A DNA stretch of 48,623 nucleotides from Clostridia bacterium (lineage in GTDB: Bacteria > Bacillota > Clostridia > Oscillospirales > Acutalibacteraceae). The position numbers and the translations under genes were made by a program. How positions within the stretch are numbered: position 1 is the stretch's first letter; every line of letters starts with the position of its first letter. Shown here piece after piece: positions 43,421-48,623 of the stretch. The stretch covers positions 1 through 48,623 of the forward strand of contig JAFURT010000024.1 in the NCBI GenBank assembly GCA_017471765.1, given 5' to 3'. Below the pieces are notes generated by a model. The model worked only from the letters and a program-made list of their open reading frames with translations. It was not told the origin of the DNA and did no database searches.

Positions 43421-43496
43421 GGAAGCATAGCTCAGCTGGTAGAGCACCTGCCTTACAAGCAGGGGGTCACAGGTTCGAGCCCTGTTGTTTCCACCA
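43421..43496 (+). tRNA. tRNA-Val (anticodon TAC)
   Basis: A full cloverleaf: acceptor GGAAGCA pairs with TGTTTCC (one G-T), the anticodon loop CTTACAA reads TAC, the T-arm has GGTTCGAGCC, and CCA is encoded. Confidence 0.95.
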
Positions 43497-43510
43497 CCTG
43501 TTTTGGATTT

Positions 43511-43587
43511 GGCCCGGTAGTTCAGCTGGTTAGAACGCTAGCCTGTCACGCTAGAGGTCGACGGTTCGAGCCCGTTCCGGGTCGCCA
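43511..43587 (+). tRNA. tRNA-Asp (anticodon GTC)
   Basis: Acceptor GGCCCGG pairs with CCGGGTC, the anticodon stem-loop is CTAGC-CTGTCAC-GCTAG, discriminator G, and CCA is encoded. Confidence 0.95.
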
Positions 43588-43593
43588 AAATAA

Positions 43594-43669
43594 GCCCAGA
43601 TAACTCAGTTGGTAGAGCAGTGGACTGAAAATCCACGTGTCGCTGGTTCGATTCCGGCTCTGGGCACCA
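43594..43669 (+). tRNA. tRNA-Phe (anticodon GAA)
   Basis: Acceptor GCCCAGA pairs with TCTGGGC, the anticodon stem-loop is GTGGA-CTGAAAA-TCCAC, discriminator A, and CCA is encoded. Confidence 0.95.
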
Positions 43670-43674
43670 CATAT

Positions 43675-43750
43675 GCGGCTGTAGCTCATCTGGTAGAGCG
43701 CCACCTTGCCAAGGTGGAGGTAGCGAGTTCGAGCCTCGTCAGCCGCTCCA
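43675..43750 (+). tRNA. tRNA-Gly (anticodon GCC)
   Basis: Acceptor GCGGCTG pairs with CAGCCGC, the anticodon stem-loop is CCACC-TTGCCAA-GGTGG, discriminator T, and CCA is encoded. Confidence 0.95.
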
Positions 43751-43755
43751 AAACC

Positions 43756-43783
43756 AAGAAAAGGTGTTCCGGCACCTTTTCTT
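43756..43783 (+). terminator. Hairpin between tRNA-Gly and tRNA-Cys
   Basis: AAGAAAAGGTG, loop TTCCGG, CACCTTTTCTT. It has a terminator shape, so tRNA-Cys may depend partly on readthrough or the hairpin may serve in processing. Confidence 0.6.
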
Positions 43784-43788
43784 CATAT

Positions 43789-43863
43789 GGCGACATAGCC
43801 AAGTGGTAAGGCACGAGTCTGCAAAACTCTGATTCCCCGGTTCAAATCCGGGTGTCGCCTCCA
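43789..43863 (+). tRNA. tRNA-Cys (anticodon GCA)
   Basis: Acceptor GGCGACA pairs with TGTCGCC, the anticodon stem-loop is GAGT-CTGCAAA-ACTC, the T-arm has GGTTCAAATCC, and CCA is encoded. It marks the edge of the GC-rich backbone. Confidence 0.95.
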
Positions 43864-44380
43864 AAAATCCCGTTCACGAAAGTGGGCGGGATTTTACTTA
43901 TTACTTCTTACCTCTTCACTCTTACCTCAAATGGCAGGATTTTTTGGAAAGTAATAAGTAAGAAGTAAAAGGTAATAAGTATTTTTGCAAGGCTTTGCCT
44001 TGCTCTTTTTGTTTTCTTCGTTTAACTCTGAACCAACGACCCTACTATTATCATCTGAAGCTTTTCGACTGAGCGTAGCCCAAGTCGGTAGGCGAAGAAC
44101 CGAAGTGCTGTCTGTGACAGAAAAAGCGAGGCTTCTGAAGTCGCAGCAGTCGAAGAATAAAATGCGATAGAGCATTTTATCTTCGGGAACCGCAAAAGTC
44201 GTCTGTACATACTTCAGCATAGTAGTATATATAGTAGTCTGTATTAACTTTTGTCGTTGGTTTGAGTCCAACGGGATTTTACTTTTTGTTAAGAGAAAAC
44301 CACCTGCTAAGCAGATGGTTCCAAAGAGCCTTATGCTGTTGATTTTACTTGTCATTTGTAAGTGATGCTATTTTGTTTAA
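43864..44380. other. Gene-free, hairpin-rich region after the tRNA cluster
   Basis: No credible gene is found in this ~500 bp. A hairpin with AAATCCCG / CGGGATTTT follows tRNA-Cys and probably ends the tRNA transcript. Next come AT-rich inverted repeats (ACTTATTACTTCTTACCT near 43895-43915 and AAGTAATAAGTAAGAAGTA near 43950-43970) and a terminator-like GCAAGGCTTTGCCTTGC with a T-run (about 43987-44010). GTCGTTGGTT occurs inverted about 220 bp apart; the second copy, with TTTGAGTCCAACG, looks like a tRNA T-arm, but no cloverleaf forms. AAAATGC/GCATTTT forms another stem near 44158-44178. Confidence 0.6.
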
Positions 44381-44384
44381 GCAG

Positions 44385-44413
44385 TTGATTTTCAAACACA
44401 ATCCTGTTATAAT
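44385..44413 (+). promoter_or_regulatory. Promoter of the isomerase-kinase pair
   Basis: TTGATT (44385-44390), a 17-bp spacer and a consensus TATAAT (44408-44413), 69 bp before the start codon. Confidence 0.8.
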
Positions 44414-44482
44414 GAAACAAAGACGCGGAGCAGCGGATTTTCCTGTTTTAGAAGCAGAACGGCATAAAAGGTGGCTTAAAAG

Positions 44483-45715
44483 ATGATACAAAAATATCAA
44501 ATTGACACAACAGAAAATAAAGCTTTTTTACAAGCAATGCTAGATGATTTATTGAGATTCGGGCACCGATTTCCTTCTCCGGGGGGAAGTTCTTATTATT
44601 TGGGAGACGATGGGACTCCTTGGAAGGAAAGACCGCGCGAGACGTGGATCACTTCCCGAATGGCGCATGTATATAGTATTGGAACGCTTCTTGGGCATGA
44701 GGGAAGCGGGGAATTGGTAGATGCAGCGTTAAAAGGGCTTCGTGGAGAACTGAAAGATTCCCAAAACGGCGGCTGGTATGCCGGTGTGACCGCACAGGGG
44801 GACATTTTGCCGAACAAGCAGTGTTATGCTCATGCTTTTGTTATTTTGGCAGCTACGTCAGCATTTCTTGCACAGCGAGAAGGAGCGAAAGAATTGCTGG
44901 ATGAAGCGTTAAAGTTATATAATGAGCGTTTTTGGGATGAGGAAGAGGGCCTTTCCTGCGATACATGGAATACGGAGTTTACAGTTCAGGACAGCTATCG
45001 TGGTATTAATGCAAATATGCATACGGTAGAAGCGTTTTTGGCAGTGGCTGATGCTTTGATGGATGATACTTATCGTGTGCGTGCGGGACGCATCATTGAT
45101 CGTGTGGTGGAATGGGCTAAGGATAATAAATGGAGAATTCCGGAGCATTTTACGAAGAATTGGATGCCGGAGTTGGAATGCAACAAGGAGAAACCTGATG
45201 ACCCATTTAAACCATATGGTGCAACACCGGGGCATGGTTTGGAATGGGCTAGACTCATCACCCAATGGGCAGTTTCCACGTATAAAGGCAGAGAAGAGGG
45301 CGGTAAATACCTGGAGGCGGCCAAAGCGCTATACTATCAAGCAATTGCGGATGCTTGGAACTGTGATGGCGCCAGAGGTATTGTTTATACTACAGACTGG
45401 GATGGCAAACCGGTGGTACATGACCGGATGCACTGGACTTTGGCAGAGGCGATCAATACTTCCGCAGTGCTCTACCGTATGACCGGAAAGCAACAATATG
45501 CAGACGATTATGCGACGTTTATGAAATATTTGGATGAAGAGGTGTTGGATCATAAGCACGGCTCGTGGTTCCACCAATTAGATCGGAAAAACCGGTTACT
45601 TGGAACGGTGTGGCCGGGTAAATCCGATCTTTATCACGCATTGCAGGCGGTATTGATACCATATCACAGAGTAGACATTTCCATTGCGCTTGCTGTGAAG
45701 AAATCACGGGAATAA
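44483..45715 (+). CDS. AGE/YihS-family aldose-ketose isomerase, probably D-mannose isomerase
   Basis: The 410-residue (alpha/alpha)6-barrel protein aligns along its length with E. coli YihS: ETWITSRMAHVYSIG, NGGWYAGV, GINANMHTVEAFL, TPGHGLEWARL and GKSDLYHALQAV. Catalytic histidines correspond to His251 and His385, with Arg59, His180 and Glu254 also kept. As I recall, sulfoquinovose isomerases use Gln362 and Gln379 (E. coli numbering) near the sulfonate; here the same places are His364 and Ser381, as in mannose isomerases. With the fructokinase-like gene 12 bp downstream, the pair would convert mannose to fructose and then to fructose 6-phosphate. Base use is more AT-rich than the backbone, and no transporter gene is present. 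Confidence 0.82.
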   Translation: MIQKYQIDTTENKAFLQAMLDDLLRFGHRFPSPGGSSYYLGDDGTPWKERPRETWITSRMAHVYSIGTLLGHEGSGELVDAALKGLRGELKDSQNGGWYAGVTAQGDILPNKQCYAHAFVILAATSAFLAQREGAKELLDEALKLYNERFWDEEEGLSCDTWNTEFTVQDSYRGINANMHTVEAFLAVADALMDDTYRVRAGRIIDRVVEWAKDNKWRIPEHFTKNWMPELECNKEKPDDPFKPYGATPGHGLEWARLITQWAVSTYKGREEGGKYLEAAKALYYQAIADAWNCDGARGIVYTTDWDGKPVVHDRMHWTLAEAINTSAVLYRMTGKQQYADDYATFMKYLDEEVLDHKHGSWFHQLDRKNRLLGTVWPGKSDLYHALQAVLIPYHRVDISIALAVKKSRE

Positions 45716-45727
45716 AGGGATGAGAGT

Positions 45728-46687
45728 ATGAGAAAGAGATTTGACATTTTAGCTCTTGGCGAGCTTTTAATCGATTTTACCCATTATGGCATAAGCGATC
45801 AAGGAAACGGTCTTTTCGAGGCAAATCCGGGCGGAGCGGTGTGCAACGTGCTTGCCATGATGAACCAAATGGGGCATAGTGCGGCTTATATGGGAAAAGT
45901 GGGAGATGATATTTTTGGTCATCTTTTGAAAAAGACGCTGGAAGATTTGAACATTAGTACGGATTATATGCTTATGGATAAAGATGCGCGTACAACACTT
46001 GCATTTATTGCCAATGATGATACGGGTGAAAGAAGTTTTTCATTTTATCGTAATCCAGGCGCCGATATGATGTTTACCGCAGACGAGGTAAATTCGGAGG
46101 CAATTGTTGCGGCACGTATCTTCCATTTTGGAACACTTTCTATGACACATGAGAGGGTGAGAGAGGCCACAAAGAAGGCTCTTGCTATTGCAAAGGAGAA
46201 CGGTGTTCTCATTTCCTTTGATCCGAATCTTCGTGAGGCATTGTGGGACTCCCTGGATACGGCGAAAGAGCAGGTTGCTTATGGCATGCAATTCTGCGAC
46301 GTGTTAAAAATTTCAGATAATGAAATTCAATGGTTTACAGGAAAAGAGGATTATGAGGAAGGCGTGAGAGCTCTTCAAGATGCTTATCACATTCCATTGA
46401 TTTTCTTATCGCTTGGAAGAGATGGAAGTCGTGCATATTATAAAGATATGAGAGTGACGGTTCCGGCATTTATACAGGAGAATACAATTGAGACTACCGG
46501 TGCGGGTGATACGTTCTTTGGAAGTGTGTTGCATTTCGTGTTGGAGAAAGGCCTGGACAACCTGGAGGATTCGGATCTGAAAGAAATGCTGACTTTTGCC
46601 AATGCGGCGGCTTCGATTATTACAACGAGAAAGGGTGCATTGAAAGTAATGCCGTCCGAGGAAGAAGTAAAAGAATTTTTCGGTTGA
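45728..46687 (+). CDS. PfkB-family sugar kinase (fructokinase-like)
   Basis: The 319-residue kinase has the PfkB signatures: an N-terminal LGELLIDFTHYG, GGAVCNVLAMMNQMG, GKVGDDIFG, and the anion-hole/catalytic motif TTGAGDTFFG with Asp261. The closest pattern is bacterial fructokinase (ScrK type), making fructose 6-phosphate with ATP. It follows the isomerase by 12 bp in the same AT-richer style, which supports a two-step mannose (or similar sugar) pathway. YihV, the sulfofructose kinase, is in the same superfamily, but the isomerase residues argue against that pathway. The stop is followed by the first copy of the core-terminator-hairpin array element. Confidence 0.87.
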   Translation: MRKRFDILALGELLIDFTHYGISDQGNGLFEANPGGAVCNVLAMMNQMGHSAAYMGKVGDDIFGHLLKKTLEDLNISTDYMLMDKDARTTLAFIANDDTGERSFSFYRNPGADMMFTADEVNSEAIVAARIFHFGTLSMTHERVREATKKALAIAKENGVLISFDPNLREALWDSLDTAKEQVAYGMQFCDVLKISDNEIQWFTGKEDYEEGVRALQDAYHIPLIFLSLGRDGSRAYYKDMRVTVPAFIQENTIETTGAGDTFFGSVLHFVLEKGLDNLEDSDLKEMLTFANAAASIITTRKGALKVMPSEEEVKEFFG

Positions 46688-46713
46688 ACTTTCCAAAATG
46701 GAAAAATCCCTGG

Positions 46714-46750
46714 TTTTCAGGCACATTAAATTCGTGTCATTAAGTTCAAA
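46714..46750 (+). repeat. 37-nt core repeat, copy 1
   Basis: This stretch (TTTTCAGGCACATTA, then A, then ATTCGTGTCATTAAGTTCAAA in two parts) is repeated at 48366-48402 in the same orientation with one mismatch. It starts 27 bp after the kinase stop codon and stands directly before a terminator. Within it GGCAC and GTGTC can pair around a 9-nt loop. Confidence 0.9.
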
Positions 46751-46760
46751 CTACCCAAAA

Positions 46761-46792
46761 AAAGAACGAAGAAAAATCTTCGTTCTTTTTTT
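46761..46792 (+). terminator. Rho-independent terminator of the isomerase-kinase pair
   Basis: AAAGAACGAAGA, loop AAAA, TCTTCGTTCTTT with a seven-T run; a perfect 12-bp stem. Confidence 0.93.
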
Positions 46793-46794
46793 AT

Positions 46795-46954
46795 CCAATC
46801 CGAAGGATTGGCATGTAATCGCCATTAGGCGAATGTAATCACGCGTAGCGTGTATGGCATCACCGCAGGTGTATTTTCATCGGATTGATTACATACATTT
46901 CTTTGAAATGATTACATTCCGACTCCGTCGGATTACATACAATGCTTCGCATTG
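46795..46954. repeat. Seven-hairpin array 1 (spacer word ATGTAATC / GATTACAT)
   Basis: Hairpins, each with a 3-4 nt loop, lie at 46795-46811 (CCAATCC/GGATTGG), 46821-46830, 46841-46851, 46862-46870, 46896-46910 (CATTTC/GAAATG), 46918-46932 (TCCGAC/GTCGGA) and 46940-46954 (CAATGC/GCATTG). The first four are followed by the spacer ATGTAATC or decayed forms ending in ATC. After the midpoint the spacers become (G)ATTACAT, its reverse complement. At the switch (46882-46887) lies an unpaired GGATTG, the 3' arm of the first hairpin. Confidence 0.9.
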
Positions 46955-47152
46955 ATTTATTACCGCTTTTATGCTATGCTTGTGCTACAATAGGGATAAA
47001 AATTTGTCTATTCAACTATATCTATACAAATTTTGTATAACATTATATAATTGTTAATAAGGAAAATGTTTTTGTTCAAGATTTTCTTATTTTTCTCATT
47101 TACAATAGATGATGTAAAGAGTACTTTTTATAATAAATTTAAGGAGAAAACT
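46955..47152 (+). promoter_or_regulatory. Leader region of the AraC-GNAT gene
   Basis: This ~200 bp is very AT-rich. TACAAT at 46986-46991 is a possible -10 box without a clear -35. AAGGAG before the ATG at 47153 is the ribosome site. No other gene or structure is evident. Confidence 0.45.
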
Positions 47153-48337
47153 ATGGAAAATACTGAACTTATTAGTAAAGCTATTCACTATGCAAAGAAA
47201 AATTTTAATAATAATGATATGTCCGTAGAAAAAGTGGCTGATTATGCGGGATTTTCTATTAATTATTTTAATCGTATCTTCCTTGCTCATACAGGATTTA
47301 CTGTTATGTCGTATGTAAATTATATGAGAATTAAAAAGGCTGTTGAACTTTTACGAAATACCGATAAAACTGTACTAGATATTGCATTAGAAGTTGGTTA
47401 TGATTCTCATGAAGGCTTTATAAAAGCATTTAAAAAATTTTATAATGTTACGCCAAGTGAATATAGGAAACAAAATAAAAACAAGGTTCTTTCTTGGAAT
47501 GAGTTGACGGATTCTTCTTGTGTGAATAGATTTCTTCACGAAAACACCGATTTCAAACAAATTGATTCTGATTTAATTATTGATTATTTGTTAGAACAAG
47601 ACAGCAAGCGTTACGGATATTTTTGCACAACCATTAAATGTATGGGACTTCAAATAGTAGCGCCATCAGGTAACTATGAAAAGGGATTTATAGGAATTGG
47701 TGATGACAGAAACGGTGGCGTGTGGCTGGAATTAGTGAGTGATGATTTTTCATTGCTAGCAGAGTGGATAAAACGATTTGATAGTCCAATAAACTTTTAT
47801 TCAAATGAAAATCCCGAGAAAGTGAGAGAGAATCTGAAATCATATGGCATTAATTGCGAAATTGAATCAACCCCTCAATCCTTGTATTTGGGAGCCCATA
47901 TAAAAAATAATTTACCTCAAAATGTTATTATTAGAGAATTATCGTACGCAGATAAGGACAACATTTTAAAATGGGCAAACGGAAAAACTGATGGATATAT
48001 TAATCATTTGCTAAACGAAAAACATTATCAAGATCCATCTGTGATGGAATACGGTGTATTCCAAAATGACGATTTAATAGCTATTGCAGGTTGTGGAATT
48101 GACGAGGCTCACGGGTTTAAACTGAATAATTGCTGTAATATTCGTTTTGCAGATGGCAAAGCAACCAATGAAATGTATTTCAACATTTTCGCTTTTGTTG
48201 TGAATGATATTATTGATAAAGGTTTACTGCCTTTTGACGATTTGCAATATGGAGAGTATGCAAAGTCACATGGCGGTTTTTCAGCAAATGATGTTGGATT
48301 TACAACTGTAAATTGGCGGTATGATATTTTTAAATAA
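47153..48337 (+). CDS. AraC-type DNA-binding domain fused to a GNAT-like acetyltransferase domain
   Basis: The ATG at 47153 has AAGGAG 6 nt upstream and gives 394 residues; an upstream in-frame start would add a non-homologous tail. The N-terminal ~105 residues are an AraC double helix-turn-helix (MSVEKVADYAGFSINYFNRIF, then TVLDIALEVGYDSHEGFIKAFKKFYNVTPSEY). The C-terminal ~130 residues (from about IIRELSYADKDNILKW) look like a GNAT acetyltransferase: VFQNDDLIAIAGCGI, a central strand-helix pair, and SHGGFSANDVGF at the end. A ~130-residue middle part (GYFCTTIKCMGLQIVAP ... GINCEIES) is unassigned, perhaps another GNAT-like half. The gene is strongly AT-rich and lies between two copies of the core-terminator-hairpin element. 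Confidence 0.75.
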   Translation: MENTELISKAIHYAKKNFNNNDMSVEKVADYAGFSINYFNRIFLAHTGFTVMSYVNYMRIKKAVELLRNTDKTVLDIALEVGYDSHEGFIKAFKKFYNVTPSEYRKQNKNKVLSWNELTDSSCVNRFLHENTDFKQIDSDLIIDYLLEQDSKRYGYFCTTIKCMGLQIVAPSGNYEKGFIGIGDDRNGGVWLELVSDDFSLLAEWIKRFDSPINFYSNENPEKVRENLKSYGINCEIESTPQSLYLGAHIKNNLPQNVIIRELSYADKDNILKWANGKTDGYINHLLNEKHYQDPSVMEYGVFQNDDLIAIAGCGIDEAHGFKLNNCCNIRFADGKATNEMYFNIFAFVVNDIIDKGLLPFDDLQYGEYAKSHGGFSANDVGFTTVNWRYDIFK

Positions 48338-48365
48338 AAACAGATAAAAAGTAAGAAATCCTCGT

Positions 48366-48402
48366 TTTTCAGGCACATTACATTCGTGTCATTAAGTTCA
48401 AA
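48366..48402 (+). repeat. 37-nt core repeat, copy 2
   Basis: It is identical to 46714-46750 at 36 of 37 positions and lies 29 bp after the AraC-GNAT stop codon, again just before a terminator. The two copies are direct repeats 1,652 bp apart. Confidence 0.9.
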
Positions 48403-48410
48403 ACTCCCAG

Positions 48411-48444
48411 AAAAAAGGACTTCACTTTCGTGAAGTCCTTTTTT
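48411..48444 (+). terminator. Rho-independent terminator of the AraC-GNAT gene
   Basis: AAAAAAGGACTTCAC, loop TTTC, then the full complement ending in TTTTTT; a 15-bp perfect stem. Its sequence differs from the terminator after core copy 1. Confidence 0.93.
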
Positions 48445-48445
48445 C

Positions 48446-48623
48446 AATGATATCCGTTCCTTACGGAACGGATGATATACCTTCGGTATGATATCCACCT
48501 GCGGTGGATGATATATGCTTCGCATATGAAGGAACGGATATTATATCATATTTGCAACGCAAATATATCATACGGCGCAAGTCGTATATCATATCGCGTT
48601 AGCGATATATCATTTCATATTGC
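48446..48623. repeat. Seven-hairpin array 2 (spacer word ATGATAT / ATATCAT), continues to window end
   Basis: Hairpins lie at 48452-48473 (ATCCGTTCC/GGAACGGAT), 48477-48489 (ATACC/GGTAT), 48493-48509 (ATCCACC/GGTGGAT), 48513-48527 (ATATGC/GCATAT), 48548-48566 (ATATTTGC/GCAAATAT), 48570-48587 (ATACG/CGTAT with a GCAA inner loop) and 48591-48608 (ATATCGC/GCGATAT). The first four are joined by ATGATAT and the last three by ATATCAT. At the switch an unpaired GGAACGGAT (48531-48539) repeats the 3' arm of the first hairpin. The window ends right after the seventh hairpin, so the true end is not known. Confidence 0.9.

Follow-up and report, generated by a model that had tools for sequence, protein, structure and literature searches.

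Integron cassettes are tandem, small, adenine–thymine (AT)-rich accessory genes with a common 3′ element (attC, bearing the GTTRRRY core box), a fixed anchor, attI, and IntI, and to our knowledge no integron leaves its 3′ element behind while the gene moves. Repetitive extragenic palindromic (REP) sequences and bacterial interspersed mosaic elements (BIMEs) with REP-associated tyrosine transposases (RAYTs) combine paired inverted hairpins, a repeated word and many copies per genome; transfer RNA (tRNA)-targeted islands insert behind tRNA 3′ ends, with a content that differs per genome at one site; and in diversity-generating retroelements the right end of the replaced segment lies at a short conserved site before a hairpin. 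Here we describe a locus that shares some traits with each of these systems. It forms the last part of a stretch of 48,623 nucleotides (nt) from a Clostridia bacterium of the Acutalibacteraceae (GCA_017471765.1, JAFURT010000024.1), called the window below. The window is one complete contig (G000:C16), and the draft genome to which it belongs has 41 contigs and 1.92 Mb. Comparison with other genomes (handles beginning with L are ours) shows a common platform, an exchanged gene and edges that are sharp on average, and the whole resembles a system for capturing genes that fits none of the known kinds.

A unit, or slot, runs from a tRNA gene or the previous core through a terminator, a hairpin array or inverted repeat, a sigma-70 promoter and a small AT-rich open reading frame (ORF) to a core and a further terminator. 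Like integron cassettes, the units are small AT-rich genes in tandem that all end in one common 3′ element beside a fixed anchor. Unlike them, the slots have their own promoters, the anchor is a tRNA gene, the 3′ element on average stays behind, and the core has no GTTRRRY box: it reads GTTCAAA in 10/12 aligned copies, and none has GTTRRRY there. The window contains the following parts.

43421–43863, + strand: cluster of tRNA-Val, -Asp, -Phe, -Gly and -Cys, the island anchor (ARAGORN)
43861–43981, + strand: terminator and hairpin-less inverted repeat (TTACTTATTACTTC type), directly 3′ of tRNA-Cys (by reading; inverted repeat I3)
44483–45715, + strand: slot 1, gene 1, GlcNAc 2-epimerase family (Pfam PF07221, E 1.4e-112)
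45728–46687, + strand: slot 1, gene 2, PfkB-family sugar kinase (Pfam PF00294, E 2.9e-57)
46706–46757, + strand: core 1, the 52-nt 3′ module (model R1, 76.1 bits), including a previously noted 37-nt core at 46714–46750
46757–46792, + strand: intrinsic terminator 1, perfect 16-bp arms 46757–46772/46777–46792 (I12)
46793–46957, + strand: hairpin array 1, seven hairpins with words ATGTAATC/GATTACAT and a lone arm copy at 46881–46887 (by reading; DNA fold)
46952–46980, + strand: degenerate slot-promoter copy, TTGATT and TATGCT 17 nt apart, TGC ahead of the −10 (by reading)
47153–48337, + strand: slot 2 gene, AraC-family regulator (Pfam PF12833/PF00165)
48358–48409, + strand: core 2 (model R1, 77.4 bits), including a previously noted 37-nt core at 48366–48402
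48410–48445, + strand: intrinsic terminator 2, perfect 16-bp arms 48410–48425/48430–48445 (I14)
48445–48615, + strand: hairpin array 2, with two head-to-head Gut-1 motifs, 48445–48519 on the + strand and 48538–48615 on the − strand (RF01706; folds)

A sequence-only reading of this DNA had proposed one composite element made of a 37-nt core, a terminator and seven hairpins, and the parts are there as it described them: at 46714–48623 there are two cores, identical at 36/37 positions (also our repeat family D2), and behind either one come a terminator and an array of seven hairpins. That these parts form a single element did not hold up across genomes. Among the 114 cores with enough 3′ sequence, a terminator-like stem (8 bp or longer) stands behind 97 (control 20/342); an array follows only 18 (control 3/342), a hairpin-less inverted repeat 17 (control 6/342) and neither of the two 79, as judged by a strict detector that misses some. 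From the other side, only 3 of 55 arrays follow this core. In these samples most cores stand without an array and most arrays without a core, which counts against the composite by the reading's own statement that cores occurring widely without arrays would make it a coincidence. A slot promoter for a further gene, by comparison, is found behind 27/38 cores with an array or repeat and behind 12/76 without one (Fisher p = 9e-9), which indicates that the array belongs to the next slot and not to the core. At L134:154–240 and L005:6041–6110 cores are joined straight to the second half of an array, the terminator and first hairpins being missing.

The core forms the 3′ end of the gene before it and is the 3′ module of mostly single-gene units. 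In the anatomy set we examined (94 cores at 80 loci, in 50 genomes and 25 genera) the stop codon of an ORF lies just 5′ of the core in 84/94 cases, at a median distance of 5 nt, and at order-level loci an ORF stop lies close before it in 22/25. The slot ORFs have a median length of 164 amino acids (aa) and a guanine–cytosine (GC) content of 30%, compared with 52–63% per kb in the first 44 kb of the window, and the 53 that were scanned matched 39 Pfam families, with 18 of the 25 families listed having one member. A large and unusual occupant is found at L125:3541–5684, where the gene of a 694-aa membrane pyrophosphatase (45% GC) ends in a core between tRNA-Cys and tRNA-Val.

Upstream of the slot genes, promoter pattern P1 was found in 38/84 slots and on the reverse strand in 0/84, pattern P2 in 4/84, and neither in 42/84, 7 of these for lack of sequence. 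Slot promoters have TTG at −35 with a 17-nt spacer in 36/38 cases (12/38 at a control place 37 nt upstream) and TGC before the −10 in 37/38, a sigma-70 type with an extended −10, and from the −10 to the start codon there are 19–22 nt in 42/52 slots, giving a short, uniform 5′ leader. Pattern P2 (CACAAGCATATAAT) stands ahead of slot genes in L123, L101 and L005 (near 4740), and in L123 and L101 it lies behind another palindromic repeat (CTCCCTC...GAGGGAG). The candidate idea that the core is an inverted copy of the promoter, the two making a recombination site pair, was rejected, with an alignment score of 14 against a shuffle mean of 12.6 and 686/2000 shuffles reaching it. In the window, the degenerate promoter copy at 46952–46980 is absent from the consensus promoter scan listing. 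Terminators 1 and 2 are likewise missing from the consensus terminator scan because that scan requires a T run 3′ of the stem; only hairpin 7 of array 1 was listed.

The slots are anchored at tRNA genes. A same-strand tRNA lies upstream of 28/35 cores with at least 3.3 kb of upstream sequence and downstream of 0/78; over all 94 cores there is a tRNA within 6 kb for 41, and for 52 others the end of the stretch or contig comes first. The nearest upstream tRNAs belong to nine isotypes (Thr 10, Cys 6, Asn 6, Leu 5, Val 3, and Arg, Gln, Pro and Gly 1 each). The window's tRNA cluster stretch has a match in 108/150 family genomes, and of 40 of those 108 whose tRNA-Cys site was read, 7 have a terminator together with an array or inverted repeat and 33 lack this combination. 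The hairpin-less inverted repeat behind the window's tRNA-Cys is an alternative to the hairpin array; near-copies of the terminator listed with it lie behind tRNA-Thr in L017 and behind a core in L006. Between this repeat and slot 1 (44000–44480) there are more small inverted repeats, and no slot promoter was recognised there by eye. Behind tRNA-Cys of another family genome (L198:40–260) are direct repeats with a unit of ∼20 nt (ACAACCGGGGACGGTTCTC). Model R1, built from 12 core sequences with both window cores included, finds the core in 6/10 genomes of the genus, in 32/200 genomes of the family (47/398 genomes and 24/135 genera in a larger set) and in 19/295 genomes of the order (17/149 genera, ten family codes). 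An exact-match search of a named collection with the two-core pattern gave a sole match, a ‘Clostridia bacterium’ metagenome-assembled genome from roe deer colon (L005).

Occupants of the slots are nearly identical in distant genomes. The window's AraC gene has a counterpart in another genus (L128) whose DNA is 96.8% identical over 1172 nt, slot genes common to other genera reach 99.6% (L126/L127) and 98.9% (L110/L016), and pairs across families reach 98.8% over 690 nt (L226/L121), 95.6% and 94.6%. The cores behind gene pairs that are 99.6, 98.9 and 97.9% identical have identities of 0.83, 0.79 and 0.79, against a mean of 0.78 for random cores. Over 33 homologous pairs from 15 gene families, the cores are more alike than unrelated ones in their first 7 nt only (identity 0.69 versus 0.46), and the later core segments give 0.92 versus 0.91, 0.72 versus 0.71, 0.90 versus 0.90, 0.89 versus 0.89 and 0.66 versus 0.72. 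On the left side, where 16 pairs from 5 families were compared, identity going stepwise upstream from the start codon as far as 19 nt is 0.94, 0.93, 0.85 and 0.64 (random 0.54, 0.50, 0.49 and 0.35). It is high at the ribosome-binding site and still above background at 15–19 nt, but no longer so in the −10 hexamer or upstream of it. In different-locus pairs the terminators and the 200 nt behind them are 0.46–0.73 identical; the single same-locus pair gives 0.96 and 0.93. On average, homology begins somewhere between the −10 box and roughly the transcription start and ends at the core's 5′ edge, and in most cases the core, terminator and array are not carried along with the gene. Consistent with this, two species of one genus share a right flank beginning at the T run of a terminator while the genes listed to its left differ. 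The expectation of cassettes with different genes between common elements is borne out by these differing neighbours and the diversity of slot ORFs; an integron-like site in the strict sense is not, as the core does not on average travel with the gene.

Plain homologous recombination between the repeated flanks (arrays, promoters and cores), together with ordinary DNA transfer, would make the modules simply common repeats. Repeats of 50–200 bp do flank the genes, L157/L221 and L110/L016 have upstream array sequence in common, and 5/31 pairs exceed random core identity. A crossover in the core or flanks should, however, carry the adjoining core along, and the average over 15 families shows otherwise; in several pairs the promoters are alike in little but TATAAT. 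We consider this explanation rather unlikely.

Alternatively, replacement might be RNA-templated: a reverse transcriptase would copy the messenger RNA (mRNA) of a slot, primed at the recipient's core beside the terminator hairpin, and the copy would replace the gene up to the transcription start, loosely like retrohoming in diversity-generating retroelements. This would suit a moved segment with the −10/+1 interval at one end and the core edge at the other, near transcript landmarks, as well as the uniform 5′ leader and an exchange point directly 5′ of a strong hairpin. Against it, at least one pair has the spacer before +1 in common and identity is still above background at 15–19 nt before the start codon, which is beyond the reach of an mRNA copy; the left edge may extend to the −10 box. 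Reverse transcriptase (PF00078, RVT_1) occurs in 63/200 family genomes and in 10/32 core-bearing ones (p 1.0), though drafts may miss it, and in 33/90 Gut-1-bearing ones (p 0.17), with no association in either case. Of the 39 Pfam families matched by the 53 slot ORFs, the 25 listed include neither it nor an integrase. The system also differs from diversity-generating retroelements in that whole genes are replaced and a reverse-transcriptase association is lacking. A templated route of this kind seems to us unlikely, a little more so than recombination between flanks.

The hairpin arrays that precede slot promoters follow a fixed plan, which the sequence-only reading had described and which we could see in both window arrays by reading. 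Four hairpins are joined by one word (ATGTAATC in array 1, ATGATAT in array 2), then comes a lone copy of the 3′ arm of hairpin 1 (at 48531–48537 in array 2), and then three hairpins joined by the reverse-complement word. Folded as single-stranded DNA, arrays 1 (46792–46960) and 2 reach z = −6.2 and −6.1, with 0/200 shuffles equally stable, and many of the linking words pair with one another to give a rod with side hairpins on both sides. The ends of an array form an inverted repeat (CAATGATATC...ATATCATTG). Among 26 array stretches from a single genus, some of them half arrays, the same plan recurs by reading in the complete ones, in at least three word families. Stems show changes on both sides in 11/40 pairs in one array family (10 sequences) and in 21/40 pairs in a second family (15 sequences), and the covariation score of both was reached by 0/500 shuffles; in the second family helix 4 is weak, with 68.9% of cells paired, and a measure of further pair types was reached by 13/500 shuffles. 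The array design is more than chance, and the earlier inference that a folded design is kept while the sequence changes is upheld by the common plan in several word families and by the covarying stems.

Array 2 is, judged by its match to the Rfam model, two head-to-head copies of Gut-1 (RF01706, labelled as a small RNA). The first half (48445–48519) scores 62.6 bits, over the gathering threshold of 50, and the second (48538–48615, opposite strand) scores 36.6 bits, below it. Array 1 is not among the genus Gut-1 matches at E 0.01 and does not itself pass. The view that no named element has this form was partly wrong, since the halves of array 2 match a named family, the second below its threshold. 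Gut-1 was described as a noncoding RNA of the human gut that is probably not cis-regulatory, and the excerpts of that paper available to us name no function, give no expression data and do not mention tRNA or cassettes for it (Weinberg et al. 2010, PMC2864571). In the open-access literature RF01706 was found only in that source; the phrase ‘Gut-1 RNA’ was not found, and among the 20 matches listed of 109 ‘gut-1’ occurs only in PMC2864571. In the genus there are 83 Gut-1 matches in 8/10 genomes (E 0.01), often as head-to-head pairs ∼20 nt apart, in which second halves often match on the other strand, mostly below threshold; scores reach 91 bits within the window's own genome. In the family, where at most 22 candidates per genome were scored, 90/200 genomes match at E 1e-3 and 71 exceed the gathering score, while 1/14 control genomes (E. 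coli) matches, with no score over the cut-off. Gut-1 is present in 29/32 core-bearing genomes (p 7e-9; 200 family genomes).

We classified the surroundings of 60 arrays and half arrays, 31 from the genus (those with available sequence) and 29 from the 30 loci of best family matches, of which 55 have at least 45 nt of upstream sequence. The suggestion that arrays lie beyond terminators was confirmed, with a terminator-like stem just upstream of 48/55. Directly upstream is a complete tRNA gene with terminator in 23, a tRNA 3′ end alone in 6 by rule, this core in 3, one of the other conserved 3′ modules B, C and D in 8 and something else in 15; by eye, ∼5 further arrays have a loose tRNA 3′ end upstream. 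Loose tRNA 3′ ends, some with extra T-loop bases, were noted at L014:8590–8720 (−), in the array flanks of L057 and at L058:5700–5826, preceded by hairpins with TTAGTTT...AAACTATAG, of which the L057 and L058 copies adjoin an array. Core B (GTTCTTTTTCGGACACGAATGACA), a second 3′ module, lies at gene ends ahead of a terminator and an array or repeat (L014:7020–7060 (−), L068 near 1290 and, reversed, L051 near 7090). Module C (GTTCGAATTCATACGCAAAACTGCCGAAAATATCTTTTTC) lies 3′ of arrays in L059, L060, L061 and L069, with a terminator or a further array after it and no ORF seen in the interval, and module D (CTGCTCCGTTTGGTTACTC and relatives) precedes arrays in L050, L053, L041 and L062.

These positions bear on the idea that the arrays are selfish palindromes, similar to miniature inverted-repeat transposable elements or REPs, that insert behind terminators, the cassettes being a separate phenomenon. 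In its favor, the 23/55 arrays behind complete tRNA genes have no core upstream, and genomes carry up to 25 Gut-1 matches (two per complete array) from several array families together, with inverted-repeat ends. The arrays nevertheless go with the downstream slot promoter, their orientation to the upstream terminator looked uniform in those read (not counted), and no target-site duplication was noticed by eye in their flanks. A REP-like element, as raised earlier, moved by an IS200-type transposase found no backing in genome association: 90 Gut-1 genomes and 81 with IS200/Y1 transposase have 35 in common among 200 (p 0.77). REPs and BIMEs also differ in having neither the seven-hairpin plan nor a large share of copies behind tRNA or core terminators, and a Y1 association is lacking here. 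A selfish palindrome is unlikely to be the answer, although it deserves more weight than the other alternatives.

The tRNA positions also raise the possibility of classical islands that tyrosine integrases placed at tRNA 3′ ends, the core being an eroded copy of the attachment site. Apart from the anchoring itself, the loose tRNA 3′ ends before some arrays and the T-loop-like GTTCRANNC in 50/94 cores would fit. Such islands differ in that here one core serves nine isotypes and, by reading, does not reproduce their 3′ ends, most units consist of one gene, and there is no integrase among the 25 families listed for slot ORFs, which makes this origin improbable. No close empty-site pair was found; a candidate at tRNA-Cys in genus g5 (L100/L201) had no common right flank in a translated comparison with a cut-off of 80 aligned residues. 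Least probable of all, in our judgment, is that Gut-1 is a transcribed small RNA as its Rfam class (‘Gene; sRNA’) and covarying stems would have it. The first half of many arrays does exceed the threshold of that model, yet here two head-to-head copies form one array of ∼170 bp behind a terminator, the terminator-like stem lies upstream in 48/55 cases, and the second half has the motif on the opposite strand, so one transcript cannot show both halves in the Gut-1 orientation.

Taken together, the comparisons make a slot-exchange system of some kind probable. For the fuller account, a tRNA-anchored series of gene slots whose occupants are exchanged, we see the chances as about equal on either side, and for site-directed exchange at the DNA level as its mechanism they seem slightly poorer. 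Under that mechanism, an active two-point replacement of DNA would have its right-hand exchange point at the core edge and its left-hand one in the promoter/+1 region; the palindromic arrays and terminator hairpins may be structured DNA that exposes single strands or marks the platform, and a putative enzyme would act in trans. Since no enzyme is named, our confidence in this mechanism is restrained.

Several results weigh against the slot-exchange account. The left edge rests on 5 gene families and is located only to the −10/+1 interval: the 6-nt spacer is 0.73 identical (bootstrap 0.55–0.87) versus 0.57 when averaged by families, and 0.57 versus 0.57 by pairs, and L101/L174 have the spacer before +1 in common. 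Upstream, L157/L221 are 93% alike over a 100-nt stretch. Core identity lies above the 95th percentile of random in the 5/31 different-locus pairs mentioned above, with a mean of 0.83 versus 0.78, and in L222/L018 the core probably moved with the gene, since the two share one unusual core variant. Cores are no more alike within genomes (0.781) than between genera (0.785), with no homogenisation, which indicates that cores circulate too; concerted evolution of cores within genomes was rejected on the same comparison, as 354/500 shuffles were as high. Behind 64/114 cores there is neither array nor promoter, and any part of the arrays in exchange is conjectural. Of the 39 Pfam families matched by the 53 slot ORFs, the 25 listed include no recombinase, the genomes themselves not having been searched for integrases, and no excision or insertion was seen in near-identical strains. 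Several contigs end in or near arrays, and assembly artefacts are therefore possible at single loci; array 2 stops 8 nt short of the window's end, which fits a repeat that breaks assembly.

Carriage by phages or plasmids was dropped on the searches made. Exact searches of viral contigs with two core patterns, one array pattern and one promoter pattern gave no match, and no relative of the AraC protein was found there; the 101-nt window stretch 46700–46800 had no phage match and one plasmid match, which covers the terminator only.

None of the known families tested has all its defining features here: Gut-1 covers half of array 2, and the integron and REP tests fail. No description of such cassettes was found in the open-access literature, as judged from listings and the openings of abstracts; one in a subscription journal or preprint is possible. 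We tentatively propose, with somewhat less than an even chance of being right, a kind of gene capture of its own, in which tRNA 3′ ends would anchor chains of slots, genes would be replaced between a fixed promoter and the core with near-nucleotide precision across genera and families, folded Gut-1 arrays would be structured DNA or RNA signals, and the core would stay behind, the exchange possibly being RNA-templated. Because the junctions are sharp, the mechanism can be tested. If true, this would be a second, unrelated solution to the task of integrons, bringing individual foreign genes under the control of a functional promoter at a set location. Gut-1 would gain a context and perhaps a role, and there would be a handle on gene flow among gut Clostridia known from draft genomes, in which genes 95–99% alike occur in different families.

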